Part shown: in pieces, positions 1-10,979 of the stretch
Numbering within the stretch: the first letter of the stretch is position 1
How the letters are laid out: every line of letters starts with the position of its first letter
DNA from: a virus
Virus record (IMG/VR): IMGVR_UViG_3300042545_001965
Location: 1-33,641 of that record
Direction: 5' to 3' (one strand)
Length of the DNA stretch: 33,641 nt
The notes under the pieces: generated by a model
What the model was told of the DNA's origin: nothing
The model's input: the letters and a program-made list of their open reading frames with translations, nothing else
The model's database searches: none
Made by a program: the position numbers and the translations under genes

Positions 1-2496
1 ATAACCGTTTGATAATTTAGCAACAATAATTGGTTCAGTGCTCACGCCCTTTTGCTGAATCATTTTTGATTGCTGTGCATGTCTTTCGGCATCACGCGGT
101 ACTTGAAAAGGATTACTTGAACCACCTTCTCGGCTTTTAATCATTTGTTGAGTTTTAGGTGTAAAGATATCCATAGTGATTGGAAGTTTAGTCAGCGTCC
201 ATTTACAATTACCAAATTCTTGGTTAATTCTTTTTAGAAAATCATCCAACTCGGCTTGGTTACGAATGCCCTTGGCTTGTGGATACAAAAAATCTTTTAA
301 CACATACTCAGGCCAGGTTGGAAATTTACTCTTTACAAAAGTATAAAGAGCATCGCGATATTCATTTAACTCACCTTCCGCCAAGGCTTTCTTATCAAAG
401 GTATCGGGATTCTGTTCGCCGAAGTCACGCATTAGCACGCCGGCTTTAGCATTGGCTTCATTTTCCCAGTCACTGCCAGTTTCTCCGGCATGAACCGGCA
501 TGGGTTCATATTCATCCTGATTGCGGTGTACCAGTTCGTGTGCCAAGGTACGCATGATGTCCATGGGATGACGATCAGCCACACTCAAGATCATGACATT
601 GGTTCCCGGCACATAACGGCCAAATGTGGCATTACGACGTGACCATTCGGGATCACGTTTTAGTTGTATGCCAGGAGGATTTTCAATTCCCAATTTCTTT
701 ACACAAAATGCAGCAAACTTTTCCAACTGTGTTTGCAGATCGTCAGCAGATTCCCGTATGCCTTTGCTCTCTTCCGCCACACCTGTCTGACCCGACTGTT
801 CAGCAGCTTGCTTGAGTGCTTGTTGAAATAGTCGAGCTGTCTTGTCTCTGCCCAAGGATTTCAGTTTTGATTTTACCCCACTAGTAAAATCATTGAGTTT
901 TGGATATGTATCATGCATTGAATGATAATTCATGATCTCGCCAACCAATCGATCCATAAAAGTACCACCGGTATCTTTGTATGAATCTTCCGTCACACCT
1001 TGTTGACCTGTGATATCTTGAACAGCCTTTAAGTGCCCACTTCCGGTGACGTAGACACCTGCTTTTCTTGTAGCAAGATATTGATCTCTAACATCAACTG
1101 TGGCCGCTTTGGCTATTTTTCCTGCCTTGTTGGGATATTGTTCCCAATTGCTAGGCCACATCAAGGACTCTCCTGCTTTGAGAAAGCGAGTGAGATTTTC
1201 TTGTGTAGCAGGTTGTTGACTCATATTTACAAAATCATATTTGCCTTCGCTGGCCATTGACAAAAACTTTTGCAGTGCTTGTGATGTAAATCCTATTCCT
1301 TGGAATGAATTATCCTTGGCAGTTGCCAGTAATCTATTGAATATTGTATCTTGGGCGTCAACACCAACTCGTTGAACTCTATTATTTTCATCTACATTGG
1401 CAAACAAAACATACAACCATTTTGGATCATTTGGGCCGGCAGTTTTAGCAACCTCATCGTCCCAGCTGCCTACATATTTGTCAATCTGTCCTTTTGTGTA
1501 AGTGCGATCCTTACCATTGCCTTCGTACCGAGCACCGTGTTTAGCAGCTATAGCCTGGACTTTTTTCAATGTGTCGGGCGAGAGATTCAATGGTTTATTG
1601 TGATCTTGTCCTACTATCACTGCGTTGGGATTCAAAAATACAGCAGATTCTTTTACACTTTCACCACCACCATCGCCGCCACCACCGTCTGCGGCAGCAT
1701 CTGTTTGCCCATAGTAATGATACCCGGGAAAAAACACGCCTCCAAAGCCGTACCGGAATGCTTTCTTCTTTTTCTTTTTCTTGGCTTCTTCTATACTGAG
1801 TTCTTGATCTCGGGCAGCTAATCTGGCAGCACGTAGTTGATCCAATGTGCCGTTGCTGCGTAGTATTTTGAATGCCAAATTCTCTGGGCCAAACTCGCCG
1901 GTCTTATCTAATCCGGCCTGGCGAAATTCTCTTATCTTTCTGCCCAAAGAATCCAACTGTTCTCGATTGCCCAATTTGATGGCAGCTTCGATACGCTGAC
2001 CCAGATCTTCGTACTTGCTCCGTACTGAAATGTCGTCTACTTCGGGTTTGCGTCGTTTAGGAACACTAATCCATTTATTGTCCTGCACTGAATAAATGCC
2101 CTGGCTTTTGGGATTTTCGTTGGCGTTCTGCACATAAAGTTCTACATCGTATCCGCCAATTTTAAAATTGTGCTGATCGTTGTACTGATATTTTTTGGCA
2201 TCAAACAGTTCGCGATATATTTCACTGGCATCTGCTCGGGGCAAGTCTGTGACCAAGTGTAGATCGATGTCGCTGTGATCTGTGTAAGTGTAAGCAGCAT
2301 TACTGCCGGAGATGGTAATGTCTTTAACTTCTAAATCCAAGCCCAGAAACTCCTTGAAGTCAGCAGCAATGGCCATAAGTTTTTCTCTAACTTCCGGCAA
2401 CAGATGTTCGTCACGGCCCCAGATTCGAGGGTTCAGATGTGTGTGAAATTTAATAGCATCGCTAAGGCGATAGTCTTCGAGCTCTTTGATGTCCAT
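1..2496 (-). CDS. Multidomain protein: nucleotidyltransferase fold + HExxH peptidase + ParB-like start (partial, 3' end outside window)
   Basis: The reading frame is open for 832 codons from the ATG at 2494-2496 to the window edge with no stop, so the C-terminus is missing. Residues ~55-125 read as a Pol-beta-type nucleotidyltransferase: a GS at 64-65, the acidic pair in SDIDLH (D76, D78) and a third carboxylate in YDVEL (D117). Residues ~239-280 form a low-complexity linker with a lysine run, an aromatic/glycine patch and a glycine/aspartate run. A zinc-peptidase motif HELVH lies at 653-657, followed by a candidate third ligand in the segment WENEANAKA. The last visible residues (VSTEPIIVAKL) resemble the start of a ParB/sulfiredoxin-like domain, which is tentative. 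Phage polyvalent proteins join such domains, and some enter the cell with the DNA. Whether this one is a virion protein is inference. It diverges from the radical SAM gene across 44 nt. Confidence 0.8.
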   Translation of the reverse strand, partial: MDIKELEDYRLSDAIKFHTHLNPRIWGRDEHLLPEVREKLMAIAADFKEFLGLDLEVKDITISGSNAAYTYTDHSDIDLHLVTDLPRADASEIYRELFDAKKYQYNDQHNFKIGGYDVELYVQNANENPKSQGIYSVQDNKWISVPKRRKPEVDDISVRSKYEDLGQRIEAAIKLGNREQLDSLGRKIREFRQAGLDKTGEFGPENLAFKILRSNGTLDQLRAARLAARDQELSIEEAKKKKKKKAFRYGFGGVFFPGYHYYGQTDAAADGGGGDGGGESVKESAVFLNPNAVIVGQDHNKPLNLSPDTLKKVQAIAAKHGARYEGNGKDRTYTKGQIDKYVGSWDDEVAKTAGPNDPKWLYVLFANVDENNRVQRVGVDAQDTIFNRLLATAKDNSFQGIGFTSQALQKFLSMASEGKYDFVNMSQQPATQENLTRFLKAGESLMWPSNWEQYPNKAGKIAKAATVDVRDQYLATRKAGVYVTGSGHLKAVQDITGQQGVTEDSYKDTGGTFMDRLVGEIMNYHSMHDTYPKLNDFTSGVKSKLKSLGRDKTARLFQQALKQAAEQSGQTGVAEESKGIRESADDLQTQLEKFAAFCVKKLGIENPPGIQLKRDPEWSRRNATFGRYVPGTNVMILSVADRHPMDIMRTLAHELVHRNQDEYEPMPVHAGETGSDWENEANAKAGVLMRDFGEQNPDTFDKKALAEGELNEYRDALYTFVKSKFPTWPEYVLKDFLYPQAKGIRNQAELDDFLKRINQEFGNCKWTLTKLPITMDIFTPKTQQMIKSREGGSSNPFQVPRDAERHAQQSKMIQQKGVSTEPIIVAKLSNGY

Positions 2497-2514
2497 AGTC
2501 TTTATTTGTATACT
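2486..2514 (+). promoter_or_regulatory. Sigma70-like promoter for the radical SAM gene
   Basis: TTGATG (2486-2491) and TATACT (2509-2514) are separated by 17 bp, matching 4/6 and 5/6 of the -35 and -10 consensus. The predicted start near 2521 leaves a ~20 nt leader before the ATG at 2541, without a clear Shine-Dalgarno. The -35 lies inside the 5' end of the divergent gene at 1-2496. Confidence 0.5.
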
Positions 2515-2515
2515 G

Positions 2516-2521
2516 TATTTA
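2516..2521 (-). promoter_or_regulatory. Late-promoter-like TAAATA element
   Basis: On the minus strand the sequence reads ATTAAATACAG, 20-25 nt before the ATG of the multidomain protein. It shares the TAAATAC core with elements before other genes here. T4-type late promoters (TATAAATA) are the model. A plus-strand TTTAAATAAAC at 2527-2537 faces the radical SAM gene. Confidence 0.35.
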
Positions 2522-2540
2522 ATCCGTTTAAATAAACATT

Positions 2541-3455
2541 ATGATTAATAAAATAACTGGATTTCATATAGAACCCACTAATATATGCACATTAAAGTGT
2601 GAAGGATGTGCAAGAACTCAATTTATTAACCAATGGCCACAGCACTGGACAAATAAAAGTATCAATGTCAATTCTTTAATGAATTTTTTAGATATTGATT
2701 TAACAGGATTAAAAATTATATTATGCGGAGTTTACGGAGATCCTATATATCATCCAGAATTTCACGACTTGTTACAAAAATTAAAGAATCGCGGCAGCCA
2801 TATCACTGTGGTAACCAATGGTAGTTATAAAGACACAGACTGGTGGAATATTACAGCTAAAATTTTAACTGCAGATGATTCTATATATTTTTCTATCGAC
2901 GGTATTCCAGATAATTTTACACAGTATAGAAAAAATGCAGACTGGGTTTCCATAGAACTCGGTATTAAAATCATGGCTCAATCCAGTTGTCGAACAGTTT
3001 GGAAATTTATTCCATTTGCGTTTAATCAAACACAAATTAACCAGGCACAGCAGCTGGCAATGAATTTGGGTATAGATGAATTTTTACTGGATCCCAGTGA
3101 CAGATTCGACGAAAAAACACAATATCTTGTGCCAGATGCAGATTTTCTCGGACCGAGATATTCGTTACAAAATAGCCTTATGAAAGGAACCAATGTTGTT
3201 ATAGATCCAAAGTGTACCAGCGGAAGGGAACACTTTATATCGGCAACAGGTCATTATGTTCCATGTTGCTATGTGAAAGATCATAGATTTTATTATAAAA
3301 CAATATTTGGTAAAAATCAAAAGAATTTTCAAATAGAAAAGAATACAATTACTCAACTATTAAAACAACCCGATACTATTGAATTTTATCAAAAAATAAC
3401 AAAATCGCCAGTGTTGGCATGCCAGTATAACTGCCCGTCTAAACAACAAGTTTAG
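2541..3455 (+). CDS. Radical SAM protein with SPASM-like C-terminal cysteines
   Basis: This 304-residue protein begins with a radical SAM cluster motif, CxxxCxxC, at C16, C20 and C23 (CTLKCEGC), which would bind a 4Fe-4S cluster and cleave S-adenosylmethionine. Downstream, CGVYGDP (~62-68) and TNGSY (~92-96) fit the usual partial TIM barrel. A second cysteine set (C225, C242, C243, C294, C298) fits a SPASM or twitch auxiliary cluster domain, typical of enzymes acting on peptides or sugars. The substrate cannot be inferred. It is one of three plus-strand genes, looks more A/T-rich than its neighbours, and has its own sigma70-like promoter, so it may be an acquired moron gene. Its 3' end overlaps the convergent GT25-like gene by 17 nt. 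Confidence 0.8.
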   Translation: MINKITGFHIEPTNICTLKCEGCARTQFINQWPQHWTNKSINVNSLMNFLDIDLTGLKIILCGVYGDPIYHPEFHDLLQKLKNRGSHITVVTNGSYKDTDWWNITAKILTADDSIYFSIDGIPDNFTQYRKNADWVSIELGIKIMAQSSCRTVWKFIPFAFNQTQINQAQQLAMNLGIDEFLLDPSDRFDEKTQYLVPDADFLGPRYSLQNSLMKGTNVVIDPKCTSGREHFISATGHYVPCCYVKDHRFYYKTIFGKNQKNFQIEKNTITQLLKQPDTIEFYQKITKSPVLACQYNCPSKQQV

Positions 3456-4014
3456 CAGTTGTCGAAGGACCACGTGAGAGGTTGAGTGCAACCAAATCCC
3501 AATCCCAGTGATGCCACGGCACAAATCTGGTACCAATACACTTGTCACTGGGTTTGACTTCGGTTGATTTAATACCACTAATCAATGCTGCGGCGTGTGC
3601 GGGACTTAGTGCATAAGCATGTGCTCCTTTGCTCCAAGTTCCTGTTGTACCTGTTTTAGTGCCGCGATCTTGATGAAATTTTTGTATGCCTTTCGACAGG
3701 TCCAACACCGGCAATGGACCTTGTATTACAGCATCTGTTTCTAGTACGACAATGGGTTCGTTTATTTCAACACACCGATGCCACAAATACCAGTGACTGA
3801 AGAAACAACCTTGATGTCCAGGGCGTTGATATATTTTGGTAGCAGGGTTAAGGTAAAGCCCAGCACGTTCATAATGCTGGGCTGTTACTGCGGTGCCTAA
3901 TGTGGCCGGAAATGGCTCTGCTGACCATCCCCACTTGCGGCAGCTGGCCAAGCAATCCTGTAATAACCTTTGACTATTTTCATGTTCAAATAATGTTATC
4001 ACATAAGATTGCAT
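3439..4014 (-). CDS. GT25-like glycosyltransferase
   Basis: The likely start is the ATG at 4012-4014 (MQSYVITLF), giving 191 residues. An in-frame ATG at 4101 would add 29 residues of basic sequence inside the upstream gene and seems less likely. The core resembles family 25 (LPS biosynthesis type) glycosyltransferases: an N-terminal strand YVITL, then GCFFSHWYLWHRCVE (69-83) and VVLETDAVI (89-97), where E92/D94 would stand for the acidic metal/sugar-nucleotide motif. It is shorter than cellular GT25 enzymes. It overlaps the upstream glycosyltransferase by a few bases in a different frame, so the two are probably co-translated. Modification of host surface glycans, virion proteins or DNA bases are all possible. 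Confidence 0.65.
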   Translation of the reverse strand: MQSYVITLFEHENSQRLLQDCLASCRKWGWSAEPFPATLGTAVTAQHYERAGLYLNPATKIYQRPGHQGCFFSHWYLWHRCVEINEPIVVLETDAVIQGPLPVLDLSKGIQKFHQDRGTKTGTTGTWSKGAHAYALSPAHAAALISGIKSTEVKPSDKCIGTRFVPWHHWDWDLVALNLSRGPSTTAKLVV

Positions 4015-4018
4015 AGGG

Positions 4019-4909
4019 TCAAGCTGTTTTTTTCTTGGCGGCTTTTTTAGCTGCTGGAGCAGCGGCTGGCTCGTTGGAAGAAATGACTGTGGGAGTGACA
4101 TTGGAAGCCAATTGTGTAGCAGGTGTAGCTGCCACAGGTGGTGATGCAGCCACTACCGCAGCAGGCACTGTGCCATTTTGTACAGCAATTTCGTGCAGGG
4201 CCTTGTACAGGGGCTCTTGTGCAGCAAAGTCAAACACATAACTTCCCGTGTGGCGTAACAACACACGCTTGTCTACCCAAATTTTGCCACCTATGTCACG
4301 CCAGTTTTCGCAGAAAGTCCAATCTTCACTATAATAACGATTTTCACGTACCGCAGTATCATAATAAGTTTTGAGATGTTTATCTAATTCTTTCGGGAGA
4401 CCAATGTCGTTGTTAAAAGGCTTGACAGCAGGATGCTCATTTAATTTTTCAAATACATGACGTTTAACCAACATAAAGCCTGTACCGGTCTTGCTTACTT
4501 CTTGCAGGCCATCTGGACCTTCTTCGGCACCGTCGAATCCGTTCACGACCCACTTGACTGGTAAAGTTTTCATAGGATACAAGCCACCGATCACATCTAC
4601 ATCTCTATTCAGCATGACCAACAAGTGCCACGGTTCCCATCCAATGTCGGCATCCACAAACATTAAATGTGTTGAATCTGGATTATTGAGAAATTTAGCT
4701 ACCAAAGTATTACGGGCACGACTAATAAGACTTTCATTGGTCATGGTTTCTATGGTCCAATCAATACCTAATTGACGGCAAGTGTTAGCCCATTTGATAT
4801 AGCTCATAAAAGTTTGTTCTGTTAGCATGCCACCGTAGCAAGGCATGCAGATATGTACTTTTGTAGTACGTAAGTAGTCGACGTTTACTTGGATTTGTTG
4901 TTCAGCCAT
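4019..4909 (-). CDS. GT-A fold glycosyltransferase (GT2-like) with Ala/Pro/Lys-rich tail
   Basis: The protein has 296 residues. The first ~230 look like a GT-A glycosyltransferase: a strand VHICMPCYGG (18-27), an arginine-rich SLISRARNTLVAKF (60-73), the DxD-type motif FVDADIGW (84-91) for metal and sugar nucleotide, and a later SEDWTFCENW segment as a candidate acceptor-site motif. Residues ~245-296 are Ala/Pro/Thr-rich and end in a lysine cluster, an unusual tail that could bind nucleic acid or a virion surface. A good Shine-Dalgarno (GAGGAAG) lies before the ATG and a TAAATAC late-like element lies 24 nt or more upstream. It is followed directly by the GT25-like gene, so a two-enzyme glycosylation pair is likely. 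Confidence 0.75.
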   Translation of the reverse strand: MAEQQIQVNVDYLRTTKVHICMPCYGGMLTEQTFMSYIKWANTCRQLGIDWTIETMTNESLISRARNTLVAKFLNNPDSTHLMFVDADIGWEPWHLLVMLNRDVDVIGGLYPMKTLPVKWVVNGFDGAEEGPDGLQEVSKTGTGFMLVKRHVFEKLNEHPAVKPFNNDIGLPKELDKHLKTYYDTAVRENRYYSEDWTFCENWRDIGGKIWVDKRVLLRHTGSYVFDFAAQEPLYKALHEIAVQNGTVPAAVVAASPPVAATPATQLASNVTPTVISSNEPAAAPAAKKAAKKKTA

Positions 4910-4932
4910 AACTTCCTCTTAAATTATGTATG

Positions 4933-4938
4933 TATTTA
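4933..4938 (-). promoter_or_regulatory. Late-promoter-like TAAATA element
   Basis: The minus strand reads CATTAAATACATAC upstream of the GT-A glycosyltransferase. With a start ~6 nt downstream, the leader would be ~20 nt and would include the GAGGAAG Shine-Dalgarno. The element sits in the short gap after the nucleotidyltransferase gene and is not part of a stop codon. Confidence 0.45.
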
Positions 4939-4947
4939 ATGGAGGAG

Positions 4948-5808
4948 TTATAGGCCGATAGATTTTTCTTCCACGTAGTCAGTTTTGCTGTAGGCATTGC
5001 TTAACGGGCTTAACTCTGTGTATTCTGCTCTGTTGCCTAACGGTTGGTCTGTTTGTGTCAGGTCATACATTCTGGCAGCGATCTCACCGTTGAGTAATTG
5101 CTGGGCTTCGATGTAATTGCCACGTTTGATCATTGATACAAAACTTGCCAATTCTTTGCTTAGATTGGCCACTAAGTTTTGCTGATCCATAGGAATTACA
5201 TGCTGGGCTAAATCTTCTGCAACTGGTTGAGTTAATACAGAATCTAATATTTCAACAAGCTTGCCAGCTGCTGAATCATTGCTGACCGTGCTGGGATATA
5301 GTTCTTTTACAAGTTTAATTTTTTGTTCGTCACGCAGTCCTGCCCATTTGGCACGTATTTCTGTAGCCGATGTCATACCGCCGCCAAACTGTGCCACTGG
5401 TAGATAAGCCATATATCCATGTTGACTCATGGGTTCAAGACCGTTTCGTTTGTAAGGTTGTAAATAGGCCAACTCGCCATTCTTTTTAACACCGCCTGGT
5501 TGTGGCATTTCCTCTTGATCCTTTTCGCTACGCACAAAAATCAATTGTGTGGTATCAGGATCGTACATTTGTGTGATTTCTTGTGCACGAAACGGACTTT
5601 TTACTTGAATAAATCTATTACCGGGAACCCCGGCTGCTTGTGCCAAAATCTTTTTGACTCTGAATGGGAAAGGACGTTCAGCAGTGTCGTCTGTGGATGC
5701 TACAAATACTTCAGCACTAGGAAATGCTGCTTGTGCGGCGTTATACAGTGCTGTATGACCACCATGCCATGGATGAAATCCACCCGGAACAATAACTAAT
5801 TTTTTCAT
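4948..5808 (-). CDS. HxGH-family nucleotidyltransferase (cytidylyltransferase-like)
   Basis: The ATG at 5806-5808 (MKKLVIVPG) is preferred because the nucleotide-binding strand begins there; an upstream ATG at 5823 adds five residues. The 286-residue protein opens with KLVIVPGGFHPWHGGH, where H15-G-G-H18 is the HxGH motif of nucleotidylyltransferases, and has a matching ISSTxIR-like segment, MTSATEIRA, near residue 150. This family transfers a nucleoside monophosphate (AMP, CMP) to a phosphate acceptor, as in NMN adenylyltransferase or RfaE/TagD-type enzymes; the acceptor is not identifiable. The last ~110 residues are helical with no known domain. Next to two glycosyltransferases, activation of a sugar or sugar-alcohol donor is plausible, as is NAD metabolism. 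Confidence 0.75.
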   Translation of the reverse strand: MKKLVIVPGGFHPWHGGHTALYNAAQAAFPSAEVFVASTDDTAERPFPFRVKKILAQAAGVPGNRFIQVKSPFRAQEITQMYDPDTTQLIFVRSEKDQEEMPQPGGVKKNGELAYLQPYKRNGLEPMSQHGYMAYLPVAQFGGGMTSATEIRAKWAGLRDEQKIKLVKELYPSTVSNDSAAGKLVEILDSVLTQPVAEDLAQHVIPMDQQNLVANLSKELASFVSMIKRGNYIEAQQLLNGEIAARMYDLTQTDQPLGNRAEYTELSPLSNAYSKTDYVEEKSIGL

Positions 5809-5813
5809 GCTAG

Positions 5814-5819
5814 TATTTA
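5814..5819 (-). promoter_or_regulatory. Late-promoter-like TAAATA element just upstream of the ATG
   Basis: The minus strand reads GCTAAATACTAGCATG: the core ends five bases before the ATG of the HxGH gene. If it works as a T4-type late -10 element, the transcript would start at or next to the ATG. Confidence 0.35.
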
Positions 5820-5823
5820 GCAA

Positions 5824-6255
5824 TTACATATTTTCCAACAGCCACAAGTAAACTGGACTTGTAAATTCAAACCGCACACATCCGTTGCAACCCATTACAC
5901 CAAAAAACTGATCTTGCAATTCTTGAGAAGTATCATTGAAATTATGGGTGTAGACTGTTTTGTCTAAAAATAACTGTCCCAATTGTATTCCGTCAAGACT
6001 CACTACTGAAATATTTACAACTCTGTCCGACACGATGTTTCCATCGTTGTCCAACACAGTATGATCTTGTTGTTTGCCAGATAGGATAATTTCTATGACA
6101 TGTGTATCGTCGGTTTCGTCGGCAAAATCAAACAAAATTGTTTCTGGGTTGGTTGTTAGAATTTGACTAAACTTTATTTGATTATCTAATTTTATTTCTA
6201 ATCGAAGATCATCTCCGGTAGCACATGCCACCAGAGACATTGAACAGATATTCAT
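5824..6255 (-). CDS. Hypothetical protein, acidic, 143 aa
   Basis: I do not recognise this family. The 143-residue product is acidic and predicted beta-rich, with alternating hydrophobic/polar strands (LRLEIKLDNQIKFSQ) and no signal peptide or membrane segment. A short cysteine pair CNGC (~124-127) precedes a beta-like ending (FEFTSPVYLWLL). It sits between a small beta-rich protein (6259-6627, gap 3 nt) and the nucleotidyltransferase gene, and appears co-transcribed with both. A carbohydrate- or virion-associated beta-sandwich is possible, but this is only a guess from composition. Confidence 0.7.
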   Translation of the reverse strand: MNICSMSLVACATGDDLRLEIKLDNQIKFSQILTTNPETILFDFADETDDTHVIEIILSGKQQDHTVLDNDGNIVSDRVVNISVVSLDGIQLGQLFLDKTVYTHNFNDTSQELQDQFFGVMGCNGCVRFEFTSPVYLWLLENM

Positions 6256-6258
6256 TTG

Positions 6259-6627
6259 TTAATAACTTAGTGTTAGTTTGGTAATAGTGCCGGCTTCGAA
6301 TCCTTCGACTCTGGCGCGGATCCAGGTAAAATAACCTGTTATGTTTCTTGAAAAATTTTCAGTAATTTCGCTAGAAGCTGAATCAAACTCGCTGACTTTA
6401 AACCAGTCTGAATCCACAGCAGGAACAGCATCTAGTGTAGCTTCAATTTTGATAATGCCTTGAAAATTCAATAGGAAAAAAGCCACTGTCTGCAGAGTAC
6501 CAAACCCGCCATAGTAATTGGCAGCCTGTTGATCTTCGCCGGCCCAGTCTTGGCTACTGCCATCGTAGTTGCCCGATGGTGTGCCGTATGTGGTGGTGGG
6601 CAACAGTTGCAGAGTGGTGGTTTTCAT
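6259..6627 (-). CDS. Hypothetical beta-rich protein, 122 aa
   Basis: A 122-residue protein without recognisable catalytic motifs. It is rich in Thr, Ser, Gly, Tyr and Phe, with a tyrosine/glycine-rich early part (NYYGGFG) and beta-like stretches such as YFTWIRARVEGF, which suggest a small virion or accessory sandwich domain. Its start directly abuts the stop of the 54-residue gene upstream (the two share no gap), and it ends 3 nt before the next gene, so the four genes between 5.8 and 7.5 kb look like one translational unit. Function unknown. Confidence 0.7.
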   Translation of the reverse strand: MKTTTLQLLPTTTYGTPSGNYDGSSQDWAGEDQQAANYYGGFGTLQTVAFFLLNFQGIIKIEATLDAVPAVDSDWFKVSEFDSASSEITENFSRNITGYFTWIRARVEGFEAGTITKLTLSY

Positions 6628-6792
6628 TTATGCTCGTTCCGCTTCTACAATAATACCTGCACCGGCAAGCTCTTCAGCTACGCTTGCCAGAGCAGAGATG
6701 ATATCATCGGTAGCTATGACGGCAACGTCACCGTTGTCTTTAACTAGCTTGCTTAGTTTAATTACGATTACTTCTTCTTGTATTTTTGCCAT
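6628..6792 (-). CDS. Small acidic protein, 54 aa
   Basis: A short frame with ATG at 6790-6792 and TAA at 6628-6630 encodes 54 residues, beginning MAKIQEEVIVIKLSKLV and ending VEAERA. It fills exactly the space between the TGA of the 236-residue gene (6795) and the ATG of the next gene (6627), with a GAGG about 12 nt upstream of the start. The sequence alternates a beta-like strand (EVIVIKL) with a helical, acidic Ala-rich second half. The tight packing and protein-like composition argue that it is real. No family recognised. Confidence 0.65.
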   Translation of the reverse strand: MAKIQEEVIVIKLSKLVKDNGDVAVIATDDIISALASVAEELAGAGIIVEAERA

Positions 6793-6794
6793 GG

Positions 6795-7505
6795 TCAGTT
6801 ATTTACCTCAATAATGGGCATTGTTGTCCTGACAATTCCAGGACAAATCAGCTGTAACATCAGCTCTATTTTTGCGTCGTTATGGTCAAAGTAGTGATAT
6901 CTTCGGGTCCAAAGCCAACGTGTCTCATATTTAAGCCAATACTGTAACCCTCTGCCAATTTTGATATCAGGTTGATTTTGCAAATAAGTCAACATACGAT
7001 TCTTGTCATCTAAGGTCCATAAGCGTTCTTTTAAAAAACTTCTGAACTTGTAGGCACTGGATTTGAGCAAGATAGTGTCTTTGGGTCGATCTACTACAGC
7101 TTCTTTGATATAATACACATGTATATAATGTTTGCTGCCAATTTGCTGTAATAAATCTTTGTTGTTGGAATAGATGTATCCCCAGTCTCCAGAAAATACC
7201 AGTTTGATCTGATTTTTTAAGGGCCAAAGAAAAGTCAACAAGTCCGATAAACAAACCAAATCAAATTGATCGCGTACAGGTACGGTCCGGTCATGGTTCC
7301 AATAGCTGAGTTTGGTACGTTGTTCAAATCTGCGAGCAACAATTTCGATCACGTCCGATAAGCTGACCAAAGGCTTCCGCATTTCACGCAAACAGCTGAA
7401 ATCCTTCATACGCAGTTTAAGGCTGTAGCGGTACTGATCGTAAAATAACCGATCACCGCATTCCTTACGTTCTAGGTTTGAATCGATCAATGACAATGTA
7501 TCCAT
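6795..7505 (-). CDS. Hypothetical protein, 236 aa
   Basis: A 236-residue protein of unknown function, rich in Arg, Leu, Tyr and Trp. It has several basic, aromatic helices (RTKLSYWNHDR, YWLKYETRWLWTRRYH) and a central beta-like part. No Walker, DxD or HxH catalytic pattern was found. It starts inside the 3' end of clpA (41 nt overlap, different frame) with no obvious Shine-Dalgarno, so it may depend on clpA translation. Basic/aromatic composition and position after clpA are compatible with a nucleic-acid-binding or Clp adaptor role, but nothing specific supports either. Confidence 0.7.
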   Translation of the reverse strand: MDTLSLIDSNLERKECGDRLFYDQYRYSLKLRMKDFSCLREMRKPLVSLSDVIEIVARRFEQRTKLSYWNHDRTVPVRDQFDLVCLSDLLTFLWPLKNQIKLVFSGDWGYIYSNNKDLLQQIGSKHYIHVYYIKEAVVDRPKDTILLKSSAYKFRSFLKERLWTLDDKNRMLTYLQNQPDIKIGRGLQYWLKYETRWLWTRRYHYFDHNDAKIELMLQLICPGIVRTTMPIIEVNN

Positions 7506-9753
7506 TATTATCTACAGTTGGGCGACCTTCGTTAGGATCAAAAGAGTTATCAAATGACAATTTGCCATCAATTAAATTCACAGTGATAGTGGTGTCTTTA
7601 AGATTGTCAAACAAGATGCGCTTACTGAGAGGTACACGAATTAGCTCATCAATCTTGCGACTCAAAGGTCTTGCACCCATCTTGGAATCGTAACCTTGTT
7701 CTGCTAGGTATTCAATAGCAGGTTCCGACAAGTTTAAACGAATATTCTTGTTAGTTAAGCTCTGTTTGAGTTCATCCACAAACTTAACAACAACTTTCTT
7801 AATCGACAAAGAATCCAACTTGTTGAACTTACAGACCAAGTCAATGCGATTGCGCAGTTCAGGTTTGAAGAAGTCTTTCATGGCACGATCTTCGGCACCA
7901 GTTTTTTCCAAGCTCTGGCCAAATCCAATCGCATTATTTTCGTTGTCTCTGGCACCTAAGTTCGAAGTCATGATAACAATGGTATTCTTGCAATCTACAG
8001 TCTTGCCGTTGCTGCTGGTAATACGTGCTTCGTCCAGCAACTGCAACAGGATGTTGGTGACATCAGGGTGTGCTTTTTCAATTTCGTCAAACAGCAAGAT
8101 ACTAAAGGGATTCTTGCTGATGTCGGATATCAGCTTGCCGCCACCTACATTGCCGTCTTCGAAGCCTACATACCCCGGCGGTGCTCCAATCAAACTGCTG
8201 ACTGTGTGTTTCTCTTGATATTCACTCATATCGTATTTCAGCAAGGTCATGTCCAAGTTTTGGCTCAACAGTTTGGCCAACTCAGTTTTGCCTGTGCCGG
8301 TTGGTCCCATAAACAAGAATGATGCCATGGGTCGTTTTTCATTGCCAATACCAGCAAAGGTAATGTACACACGCTCCAGCACTCGATCAACTATAGAATC
8401 TTGCCCGTATAGTTTTTCTTTGATATTGGCATCAAGGTCTGCGAGTTTCTTACTGGTAGTATTTTCCAGGCGATCCATAGGCACACCAGTTACACGGCTC
8501 AGTTGCTGACGTATTAGGTCTGCTGTGACTGTGAGTGTACCGGCATCTTTGACACGTTCTCTAGCACAAGCAGCATCTATCAGGTCAATGCTTTTGTCGG
8601 GATTCTTTTTGTCAGTGATAAAACGTCCCGACAGTTCAACTGCTGCCAGCATGGCCTCTGTGTCGATCATGACATTGTGAAATTTTTCTAATCTTGGGCT
8701 GAGTCCAATCAAGATCTTTTCTGTGGTTTCTGCGGAAGGTTCATCCACTGTAAGTCTGTAAAAGCGTCGCATCAGTGCGCGATCTTTTTCAAACGATTCG
8801 TAGTATTCTTCCCATGTGGTATTGGCCACAACCTTGAGACTGCCTTTGGTGATAGCCGGCTTGATCATGTTGGCAAAGTCTAAGCTGCTGTTACCGCTTG
8901 CACCTGCACCTTTCATAGTGTGTGCTTCGTCAATAAACAGCACACAGTTCTTCTTGCTTTCTAAAGCCTTGATCACATCCTTGAGCTTTTCTTCAAACTC
9001 GCCGCGATACTTGCTGCCGGCTAATAAGGAGCCAATTTCTAGGCTCCAGACTTCGTGTCCTTTCAAGAATTCGGGAACATCATCTTTAGCAATACGCTGT
9101 GCAAGACCATCCACAATGGCAGTTTTGCCTACACCCGGATCACCTACCATCAGCACATTGGCTTTGAATCTTCGTGCCAATACCGTGACCATTTCTTCAA
9201 TCTCTGTTTCTCGGCCAATTACCGGTTCTAAACGATCTTCTGTGGCCAGCTTTGTGAGGTTAGTGCAGTATTCTTCTAAGATCTCGTTGGCCTGCTGATC
9301 GGTAATGCTGCCGGCCGAAGTGTGATTGTAGTTTGTGTCCCAAAACTTTACAAATTCATTTTTAGTAACACCGTACTTGAGCAGGAAGTAGTGAGCGTGA
9401 CTGTTGCTTTCGGCCATAATAGCCAAGTACAAGTCTGCTGTGGTCACTGTTCTACGACCAGTGAATAAGACCTGTGTCAGCGCACGATTAAACACACGCT
9501 CTAGGCCATTAGTTTTTCTGGGCTGTAAGTCGGGTGTATCCTTGACCAAGTTAGTCAAGCCGTCTAGGTATTTGGAAAGGTCTCGGTCAAAATGATTTAT
9601 TTCTACACCGAATTTGATTAAACATGCTCTAAATGGTGCATGTTGCAGTAGGGCCATTAGTAAGTGTTCTGTTAGCACATATTCGTGCTGTCGGTCTCGA
9701 GCAATTCGAACAGACTGTTCGATGATTTGTTCAATTTCCGGATTGTTCTGCAT
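7465..9753 (-). CDS. clpA: ClpA-type AAA+ unfoldase
   Basis: A 762-residue two-ring AAA+ protein, the usual ClpA length. Residues 1-140 form a Clp N-domain. D1 has Walker A GDPGVGKT (204-211) and Walker B LFIDEA (272-277). D2 has Walker A GPTGTGKT (483-490), Walker B LLFDEI (553-558) and the pore loop GYVG (527-530). There is no ClpB-type coiled-coil middle domain, so it is a ClpA/ClpC-like unfoldase and not a disaggregase. After sensor 1 of D2 it carries IGF (609-611), the tripeptide loop that docks into ClpP. It could therefore redirect host ClpP, as no ClpP gene is in the window. The Shine-Dalgarno AAGGA lies 6 nt before the ATG. It overlaps the deformylase gene by 23 nt. Confidence 0.93.
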   Translation of the reverse strand: MQNNPEIEQIIEQSVRIARDRQHEYVLTEHLLMALLQHAPFRACLIKFGVEINHFDRDLSKYLDGLTNLVKDTPDLQPRKTNGLERVFNRALTQVLFTGRRTVTTADLYLAIMAESNSHAHYFLLKYGVTKNEFVKFWDTNYNHTSAGSITDQQANEILEEYCTNLTKLATEDRLEPVIGRETEIEEMVTVLARRFKANVLMVGDPGVGKTAIVDGLAQRIAKDDVPEFLKGHEVWSLEIGSLLAGSKYRGEFEEKLKDVIKALESKKNCVLFIDEAHTMKGAGASGNSSLDFANMIKPAITKGSLKVVANTTWEEYYESFEKDRALMRRFYRLTVDEPSAETTEKILIGLSPRLEKFHNVMIDTEAMLAAVELSGRFITDKKNPDKSIDLIDAACARERVKDAGTLTVTADLIRQQLSRVTGVPMDRLENTTSKKLADLDANIKEKLYGQDSIVDRVLERVYITFAGIGNEKRPMASFLFMGPTGTGKTELAKLLSQNLDMTLLKYDMSEYQEKHTVSSLIGAPPGYVGFEDGNVGGGKLISDISKNPFSILLFDEIEKAHPDVTNILLQLLDEARITSSNGKTVDCKNTIVIMTSNLGARDNENNAIGFGQSLEKTGAEDRAMKDFFKPELRNRIDLVCKFNKLDSLSIKKVVVKFVDELKQSLTNKNIRLNLSEPAIEYLAEQGYDSKMGARPLSRKIDELIRVPLSKRILFDNLKDTTITVNLIDGKLSFDNSFDPNEGRPTVDNNGYIVIDRFKPRT

Positions 9754-10183
9754 TTTGTTCCTTGTAACGATCGTGCATGGTAATACCGTTTAAGTGATCC
9801 AGTTCGTGTTGGAAACATCTACTGGCCAGCCCTGTTAGTTTTTCAACCACTTCAATCCCGGCTACATCATAGTAACGTACATCAATAGTGTCGGGACGTT
9901 TTATTATACACGTTTCTCCGGGAAAACTCAAGCATCCTTCGTCAAATTCGGTAAGGTCGTTGTAAGTTTGCACTATTTCGGGATTGAAGCAGCCCCAACT
10001 ATGTCCGTCAATGTACATTACAAACATTCGAATTCTTTCGCCAACTTGGTTGGCAGCAAGTCCAATGCCGTGGTGTTCGTGCATGACTTGAAGCATGCGA
10101 ATCACTAGATCTTCATTGGCCCATTGATTGTGTAGATCGGCTGGCTTTAGTTTAAGTCGTAGTGTACGGCGTGTCAGTTCCAT
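9731..10183 (-). CDS. def: Peptide deformylase
   Basis: The enzyme removes the formyl group from the N-terminal methionine of new proteins, using a metal. With the start at 10181-10183 (MELTRRTLRL) it has 150 residues and shows all three family motifs: GIGLAANQ (39-46), EGCLS (82-86; C84 is a metal ligand) and QHELDH (125-130; two His ligands and the catalytic Glu). An upstream in-frame ATG at 10219 lies within the end of the dnaJ-like gene and would add 12 residues; the shorter form suits the family. No convincing Shine-Dalgarno is seen at either start. Deformylases occur in several marine phages, where they may keep host or phage protein maturation going late in infection. The gene overlaps clpA. 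Confidence 0.93.
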   Translation of the reverse strand: MELTRRTLRLKLKPADLHNQWANEDLVIRMLQVMHEHHGIGLAANQVGERIRMFVMYIDGHSWGCFNPEIVQTYNDLTEFDEGCLSFPGETCIIKRPDTIDVRYYDVAGIEVVEKLTGLASRCFQHELDHLNGITMHDRYKEQNAEQSGN

Positions 10184-10190
10184 ACGGTAT

Positions 10191-10979
10191 TTATTGCCCA
10201 CGGGATTTCCTAATGGCATGTAGGATAGTGGGATCCACTGGAGAGTTTATTTTGGCATGCAATTTAATAAGCAAATCACCGGGTGGCGAATCAATGCGAT
10301 CGCCATTTAATCTTCTGGCAGGAAGTCCCCGGCCTCGTGCTCTTAGTATTGATTGAGGTTGTGTTTCTGAAGGTATTTTGACCATTAACTCTTTCCCCAG
10401 TATGTCTACTATTGTCAAATCACTTCCCAATATTAAATCCCATATATCCACAGAAATCTCTGTAATAATATTTGTACCGTCGTGATTCCATTTGGGATCT
10501 GGGCGAATTCGATAATTTATTATTAAATCCTGGCCTCCTGGCCCTAGTCCAGGATAACGAATATTGTCGTTATCTCTGACACCAACTGGAATATCAATTT
10601 CAATTTGACTTGTTCCTATATCAGACTGCAATGATAGTGTTCTAGGACCACCAATGAACACATCAGTTAACGATATCCAAATGCTAAGACGCGGTGCCTG
10701 TCTACGTTGATTTCTAAGATCAGCACCAAAAATGTTGAATATTGCATCAAAATCAAAGTTTGTTCCGCCTGATTGAGAAAAATGCGGCACGGGGTTATCA
10801 TACTGCTGTCTTTTTTCTACATCGCTTAAAACAGCGTAGGCTTCTTGTATTTCCTGAAATCGTGCAGTATCACCACCTTTATCGGGGTGGTGCTGACTGG
10901 CCAATTTGCGGTAGGCTTTTTTGATATCATCAGCAGCGGCTGATTTATTAATACCTAATGTTTTGTAATAATCTTTCAC
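10191..10979 (-). CDS. DnaJ-like (Hsp40) co-chaperone without zinc finger
   Basis: The 262-residue product has a J domain at 1-65 with the HPD motif (31-33, HHPDKGGD), which stimulates DnaK ATPase. A short Gly/Phe-containing linker follows and then a beta-rich substrate-binding part (~80-230, e.g. [12 protein letters not shown]). The Cys-rich zinc finger of true DnaJ is absent, so it resembles CbpA-type (class B) proteins. The start is GTG at 10977-10979, chosen because the J domain begins at residue 3. A strong sigma70-like promoter places the predicted RNA start at this codon, so the mRNA may be leaderless. It heads the dnaJ-def-clpA group, and a GroES-like gene lies further along. Confidence 0.9.

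Follow-up and report, generated by a model that had tools for sequence, protein, structure and literature searches.

How do domains of disparate biochemistry come to be joined on one phage protein, and what lets such a chain be rebuilt from phage to phage? This question is raised by the first gene of a 33,641-bp fragment of an IMG/VR virus record, IMGVR_UViG_3300042545_001965 (the window, by which we mean the whole stretch analysed). A single open frame on the minus strand (2496..1) runs for 832 residues from an ATG at 2496 and is stop-free up to the window edge; an overlapping IMG/VR contig, IMGVR_UViG_3300042997_001345 (L002), is 100% identical to window 1-8496 and carries the remainder of the gene (L002, 8497-11631), so that window 1..2496 holds the first 832 of 1876 codons. 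A sequence-only reading had described a polyvalent protein of at least 832 residues, complete on its right side and with its C-terminus beyond the edge, and had proposed extending the contig; both the frame and L002 agree with this, and L002 supplied the full 1876-residue protein. Polyvalent proteins are defined (Iyer et al., 2017; PMC5512222) as disparate domains on one chain encoded by a phage or mobile element. The name was well chosen, as the protein combines a nucleotidyltransferase (NTase), a zincin metallopeptidase and an amidoligase on one phage-encoded chain, along with a ParB-like part and unannotated modules. What that reading overlooked is the main point of the present study, namely that the modules are joined by a shared DNA linker. 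Our best reading, to which we give a probability of about 0.6 from sequence comparison, is that the gene encodes a module-shuffled, capsid-borne polyprotein of a large T4-related (gp21/gp22/gp23-type) phage, which would be cut by the prohead protease.

A nearly constant linker at the module joints

The joints between modules carry the peptide QGVAEG and its variants (GVAE-type), encoded by nearly constant DNA, CAAGGTGTGGCGGAAGGC. The window protein has two of these on the minus strand: linker 1, QGVTED (CAAGGTGTGACGGAAGAT, 985..1002), at the joint of two modules described below (MID and the small module), and linker 2, TGVAEE (ACAGGTGTGGCGGAAGAG, 769..786), which contains the exact 12-mer core. 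The linker is common to the window protein and to many neighbouring and related proteins, mostly as the same 18 nucleotides, and a scan of the viral contigs of IMG/VR found at least 120 stretches with the 18-mer. Among the matches listed, the reading frame is identical at 140/140 unique 18-mer sites with full flanks, and the flanks hold almost no information. As controls, a synonymous 18-mer made of common codons was found in 16 stretches by the same kind of scan, and the 18-mer itself had 26 matches, in mixed frames, in 257 Gb of GTDB genomes; these two results rule out a chance origin. A Chi-like or uptake-type DNA signal as the sole cause was likewise rejected, since the 140 sites share a single translated frame.

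The same picture emerged from loci fetched by protein similarity, without reference to the linker motif, in which GVAE occurs 44 times vs 3-8 times for permuted tetrapeptides and 26 of the 44 sites are exactly GGTGTGGCGGAA. The codons at these sites are unusual: the linker Ala is encoded by GCG in 28/33 cases, vs 7% of Ala codons overall, and the linker Gln by CAA in 33/34. Across 351 linkers, the Glu after which a cut would fall (P1) is kept in 348, encoded by either GAA or GAG. The other positions vary more freely, with Val replaced almost exclusively by hydrophobic residues.

Exchange of modules between proteins and phages

Relatives of the polyvalent gene were found at 70 loci in viral contigs. 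They share a core order of NTase, peptidase and amidoligase region; the intervening parts vary among the phages, and elsewhere modules of the window protein recur in different orders. To follow the modules themselves, 168 proteins with 419 linkers were cut at the linkers and the pieces clustered. Differing neighbours on a side were seen in 73 of the 79 module families present in at least two proteins, although loci truncated at their ends inflate the figure. Stronger evidence comes from nine module pairs, in which the DNA is 80-100% identical inside the module and 20-37% identical in the 60 nt beyond both linkers, the latter being chance level. Modules enclosed by linkers can thus be nearly identical in different phages while their neighbours are unrelated, the homology breaking off at the linker, and the combination that defines a boundary sequence, shared DNA at the joint with homology ending there, is what we find. 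By these comparisons, modules lying between linkers have demonstrably been exchanged in frame among proteins and phages and, because homology stops exactly at the linkers, these are the places of exchange. Separately, one 50-residue module, 98-100% identical between copies, occurs twice in the contig of L177 and once in L131, between linkers and with different neighbours each time. A RecA family protein is encoded in 11 of 16 records of the phage group.

Putative prohead-protease sites and possible capsid targeting

The QGVAEG-type peptide resembles the cleavage site of T4 gp21 (family S77), which cuts after L/I-x-E (PMC9026906). Genes for an S77 protease and for a gp23 capsid protein are each present in 9 of the 16 records, the protease being found in 6/16 further records and lying near 225763-226191 in one record, G004; relatives have a scaffold-like gene between the protease and capsid genes, and the N-terminal part of their capsid proteins contains YL(K/A)E↓(N/S)A (↓, putative cut). 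In one 345-kb record (G006), the gp23 capsid match at L084 (193317-194306) is broken by one TAA, unlike in its relatives. In the full-length protein, hydrophobic-x-Glu occurs at or a few residues from every module boundary, after residues 237, 283, 503, 575, 707, 712, 875 and 1017; these positions are descriptive only, as the boundaries were judged visually from BLAST blocks, and a Monte Carlo test of boundary distances was set aside as evidence for the same reason. Hydrophobic-x-Glu followed by a small residue at the joints, in a phage group that encodes the protease, is the sequence pattern expected of S77 substrates, and we infer that the joints are putative S77 sites cut after Glu.

Capsid targeting is suggested by the neighbours. 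Their MRAxEFIxE↓ starts resemble the capsid-targeting peptide of T4, as in the N-terminus of ipII and ipIII, MKTYQEFIAE↓A. Related loci contain 91 distinct M(K/R)x(1-3)EFxxE starts, Glu occupying this position in 91 of the 140 starts of the kind; P3 in the 91 is I in 52, L in 19 and V in 17, so that a Val there, which the linker has too, is normal for the group. Targeting-like starts are carried by 49/109 linker proteins vs 156/1711 others. On the contig of L002, the next five gene calls downstream of the polyvalent gene include four with such a start. Behind the polyvalent gene lie a gene that is kinase-like by eye, with the targeting-like start MRANELTE (L002, 11831-12439), and a ferritin-like gene (PF00210; L002, 13116-13556).

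Domains and modules of the polyvalent protein

The sequence-only reading had listed three domains and had named structure prediction as the test of two of them. Prediction recovered both the NTase and the peptidase fold in confident models; the third, ParB, is represented by a sequence signature alone. The Pol-beta-type NTase domain spans residues 11-240 (1777..2466, minus strand), with a GS...DxD-type motif at 2260-2307, GSNAAYTYTDHSDIDL, that is kept across the family. Its Pfam match to NTP_transf_2 is below threshold (17 bits vs 21), PHROG 36119 matches this part at 9e-41, and the model (predicted local distance difference test, pLDDT, ~95 over residues 11-230) resembles structures of MNT (antitoxin), AadA and CD-NTases at Z 5.5-7.5. 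Motif and predicted fold together confirm a member of the Pol-beta superfamily. The NTase domain alone, with the rest of the protein unmatched, also occurs in Synechococcus, Maribacter and Prevotella Lak phages (INPHARED, e.g. OR032571, MT732450, MK250019), where the proteins, if annotated, are called hypothetical or aminoglycoside nucleotidyltransferase. The domain is followed by a low-complexity spacer with a K-run and a G-rich part (residues 238-282; 1651..1785, minus strand; pLDDT <60), flanked by the hydrophobic-x-Glu sites SIEE↓A and SVKE↓S.

The zincin metallopeptidase occupies residues 584-707 (376..747, minus strand), with HELVH at 526-540, an invariant Glu at 463-465 and a C-terminal end in ALAE↓G. 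The H, E and H of HExxH and the distal Glu are invariant in 29 aligned relatives, and the model (pLDDT ~95 for residues 585-695) resembles Wss1/SprT-type proteases, IrrE and minigluzincins, with Z up to 9. The HExxH motif, the extra ligand and the predicted fold confirm the assignment.

Between these two domains lie the module we call MID (residues 284-503; 988..1647, minus strand), which has no annotated family and a poor model, and a small module (residues 504-575; 772..987, minus strand) between linker 1 and linker 2, for which the fetched loci held no relatives. MID is also present in L007, L008, L010, L013, L018 and L041, where it sits in other proteins, some of them unrelated, or at other positions. 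The middle region of the protein had no match in cultured phages, and a sequence search of the PDB gave none. A helical and ParB-like module begins directly after ELNE↓ (residues 713-832 of about 713-865; 1..360, minus strand). We call it ParB-like from the signature SNGYDLIEGWHRT at the cut end of the window frame, which runs on as NGYDLIEGWHRTIQ in L002. This part has no Pfam match and a poor model (pLDDT <50), and two alignments that took in the module misplaced it and were left out of folding. In L007 and L010/L011 the module opens a gene, directly after MRAHEFIVE↓ and MRAREFLTE↓, which are, judged by their sequence, capsid-targeting peptides. The earlier list of parts was incomplete: it lacked MID and the small module, the repeated linkers, and features seen only in the complete protein, which are a module at 875-1012 and Amidoligase_2 (PF12224; residues 1339-1450; 36.7 bits vs a cut-off of 22 by Pfam).

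Elsewhere in the window, a Radical SAM/SPASM protein is encoded on the opposite strand (2541-3455, plus strand), adjoining the polyvalent gene and with glycosyltransferase-like genes nearby, and a gene for a ClpA/B-like AAA ATPase (7465-9753, minus strand; PHROG 4871) overlaps a peptide deformylase gene (9731-10219, minus strand).

Discussion

Our study suggests how this protein may be assembled and used. In the course that we think most likely, the shared linker DNA would provide the homology for in-frame module exchange by general recombination, a UvsX/RecA-type protein being encoded, and the product would enter the prohead along with other internal proteins. There, the S77 prohead protease would cut after Glu at the linkers and at the other hydrophobic-x-Glu boundary sites, freeing separate effectors that would be packaged and ejected with the DNA, like the internal proteins of T4. 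The zincin within the chain may contribute to processing or have targets in the host. We infer homology as the cause of exchange, as well as packaging, cleavage and ejection, from the sequences. Injection to counter host defence, raised by the sequence-only reading, is plausible because of the gp21-like sites at the joints, the S77, gp23 and scaffold genes in relatives and the T4-like targeting starts of the neighbours.

Several observations, besides the inflated count of differing neighbours, weigh against this reading. P3 is Val in the linkers vs the L/I preferred by T4 gp21, hydrophobic-x-Glu sites are frequent by chance, and the boundaries to which we related them were drawn by eye. The start of the window protein, MDIKELEDY, is not clearly a capsid-targeting peptide, and its relatives likewise begin M(D/N)Ixx(L/I).. 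rather than M(K/R)x(1-3)EFxxE; we therefore do not class it as a homologue of the T4 internal proteins. By capsid protein, the closest cultured phages are PA5oct, Vibrio 2.275.O and Phosso. For part of PA5oct, N-terminal hydrophobic-x-Glu is not enriched in proteins detected by mass spectrometry (3/38 vs 8/61), though these include MKINDIITE↓G (82921-83142) and VKIKDILVE↓S (157529). No NTase homologue was found in these three phages by a search that had no positive control, and blastn with the motif, a weak search with so short a query, found no linker in cultured phages. Lastly, fourfold sites of the linkers differ at 38/187 vs 363/992 in adjacent codons between homologous modules, a comparison that favours the linkers, as they were chosen for similarity. 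Because the fourfold sites do diverge and the linkers were picked in this way, we judge the constraint on linker DNA to be real but moderate, and probably due in part to shared descent.

This divergence of fourfold sites along with the modules would be expected if the linker were a protease site only, its peptide selected, its codons copied from an ancestral joint and its DNA without a role in exchange. Such an explanation would also account for a P1 Glu far more constrained than the synonymous positions and for the same translated frame at all sites. However, identical rare codons stand beside unrelated modules in different phages and the homology of swapped modules stops exactly at the linkers, and we consider it unlikely. 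Similarly doubtful, in our view, is the possibility that the protein remains a single chain, or is processed by the HELVH zincin it contains, and does its work once expressed in the infected cell instead of arriving from the capsid. The embedded zincin has an intact motif and a predicted fold, processing by zincins was inferred for polyvalent proteins by Iyer et al. (2017; PMC5512222), and the start of the window protein fits this alternative. Against this, most linker proteins have the same joints yet no recognised peptidase, and neighbouring genes have T4-like targeting starts.

The direct-repeat flanks around each module, in constant orientation, and the conserved site of 18-20 bp are reminiscent of site-specific cassettes, for whose movement the 18-mer would be the recognition site of a dedicated recombinase or homing endonuclease. 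We regard such cassettes as quite improbable, as the sites were seen only in translated frame 0 and tyrosine and serine recombinase families were found in 0/16 records, homing endonucleases not having been searched for. Although all the data come from metagenomic contigs, assembly chimeras across a short repeat are a very improbable source of the joints, which recur in independent assemblies (the window and L002 among them); the linker occurs in related as well as unrelated contexts, and exact ~20-bp repeats are shorter than the usual final word sizes of assemblers.

None of the three elements, polyvalent proteins, capsid targeting and boundary sequences, is new in itself. Polyvalent proteins from phages and conjugative elements likewise carry disparate domains per chain, and Pol-beta NTase, zincin and ParB-like domains belong to their published repertoire; the part of that publication available to us contains no shared DNA linker (Iyer et al., 2017; PMC5512222), in contrast to the T4-type phages studied here, where a standard linker bearing prohead-protease-like sites joins the modules. 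The internal head proteins of T4 (IPI-III, Alt) are diverse and have only the targeting peptide in common (PMC3012670; PMC9026906). The T4 peptide MKTYQEFIAE↓A resembles the M(K/R)..EFxxE↓ of the genes neighbouring ours, but the T4 proteins are mostly small and not chains of linked modules, and the window protein lacks their targeting start. The boundary sequences discussed for phage mosaics are also short shared sequences at the joints of exchanged modules, but most mosaic joints are said to have no identifiable one (PMC3029335), whereas here one sequence occurs at hundreds of joints, within genes and in frame. A standard coding linker uniting all three was not found in the literature searched, which mostly excluded subscription journals, and a text search for QGVAEG returned no paper.

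We put at roughly even odds the broader proposal that, in one clade of large phages related to T4, one standard 18-nt coding linker serves as both recombination homology for in-frame module exchange and prohead-protease site, allowing new combinations of capsid-delivered effectors to be assembled, packaged and set free with no additional adaptation. It has long been asked whether phage mosaicism arises through conserved boundary sequences or through illegitimate recombination (PMC3029335); with one sequence at hundreds of in-frame joints between swapped modules, the question becomes testable. Should the prohead protease cut these joints as well, the linker would be a searchable tag for the capsid-packed proteins of these phages, through which candidates for injected effectors without known function could be catalogued.
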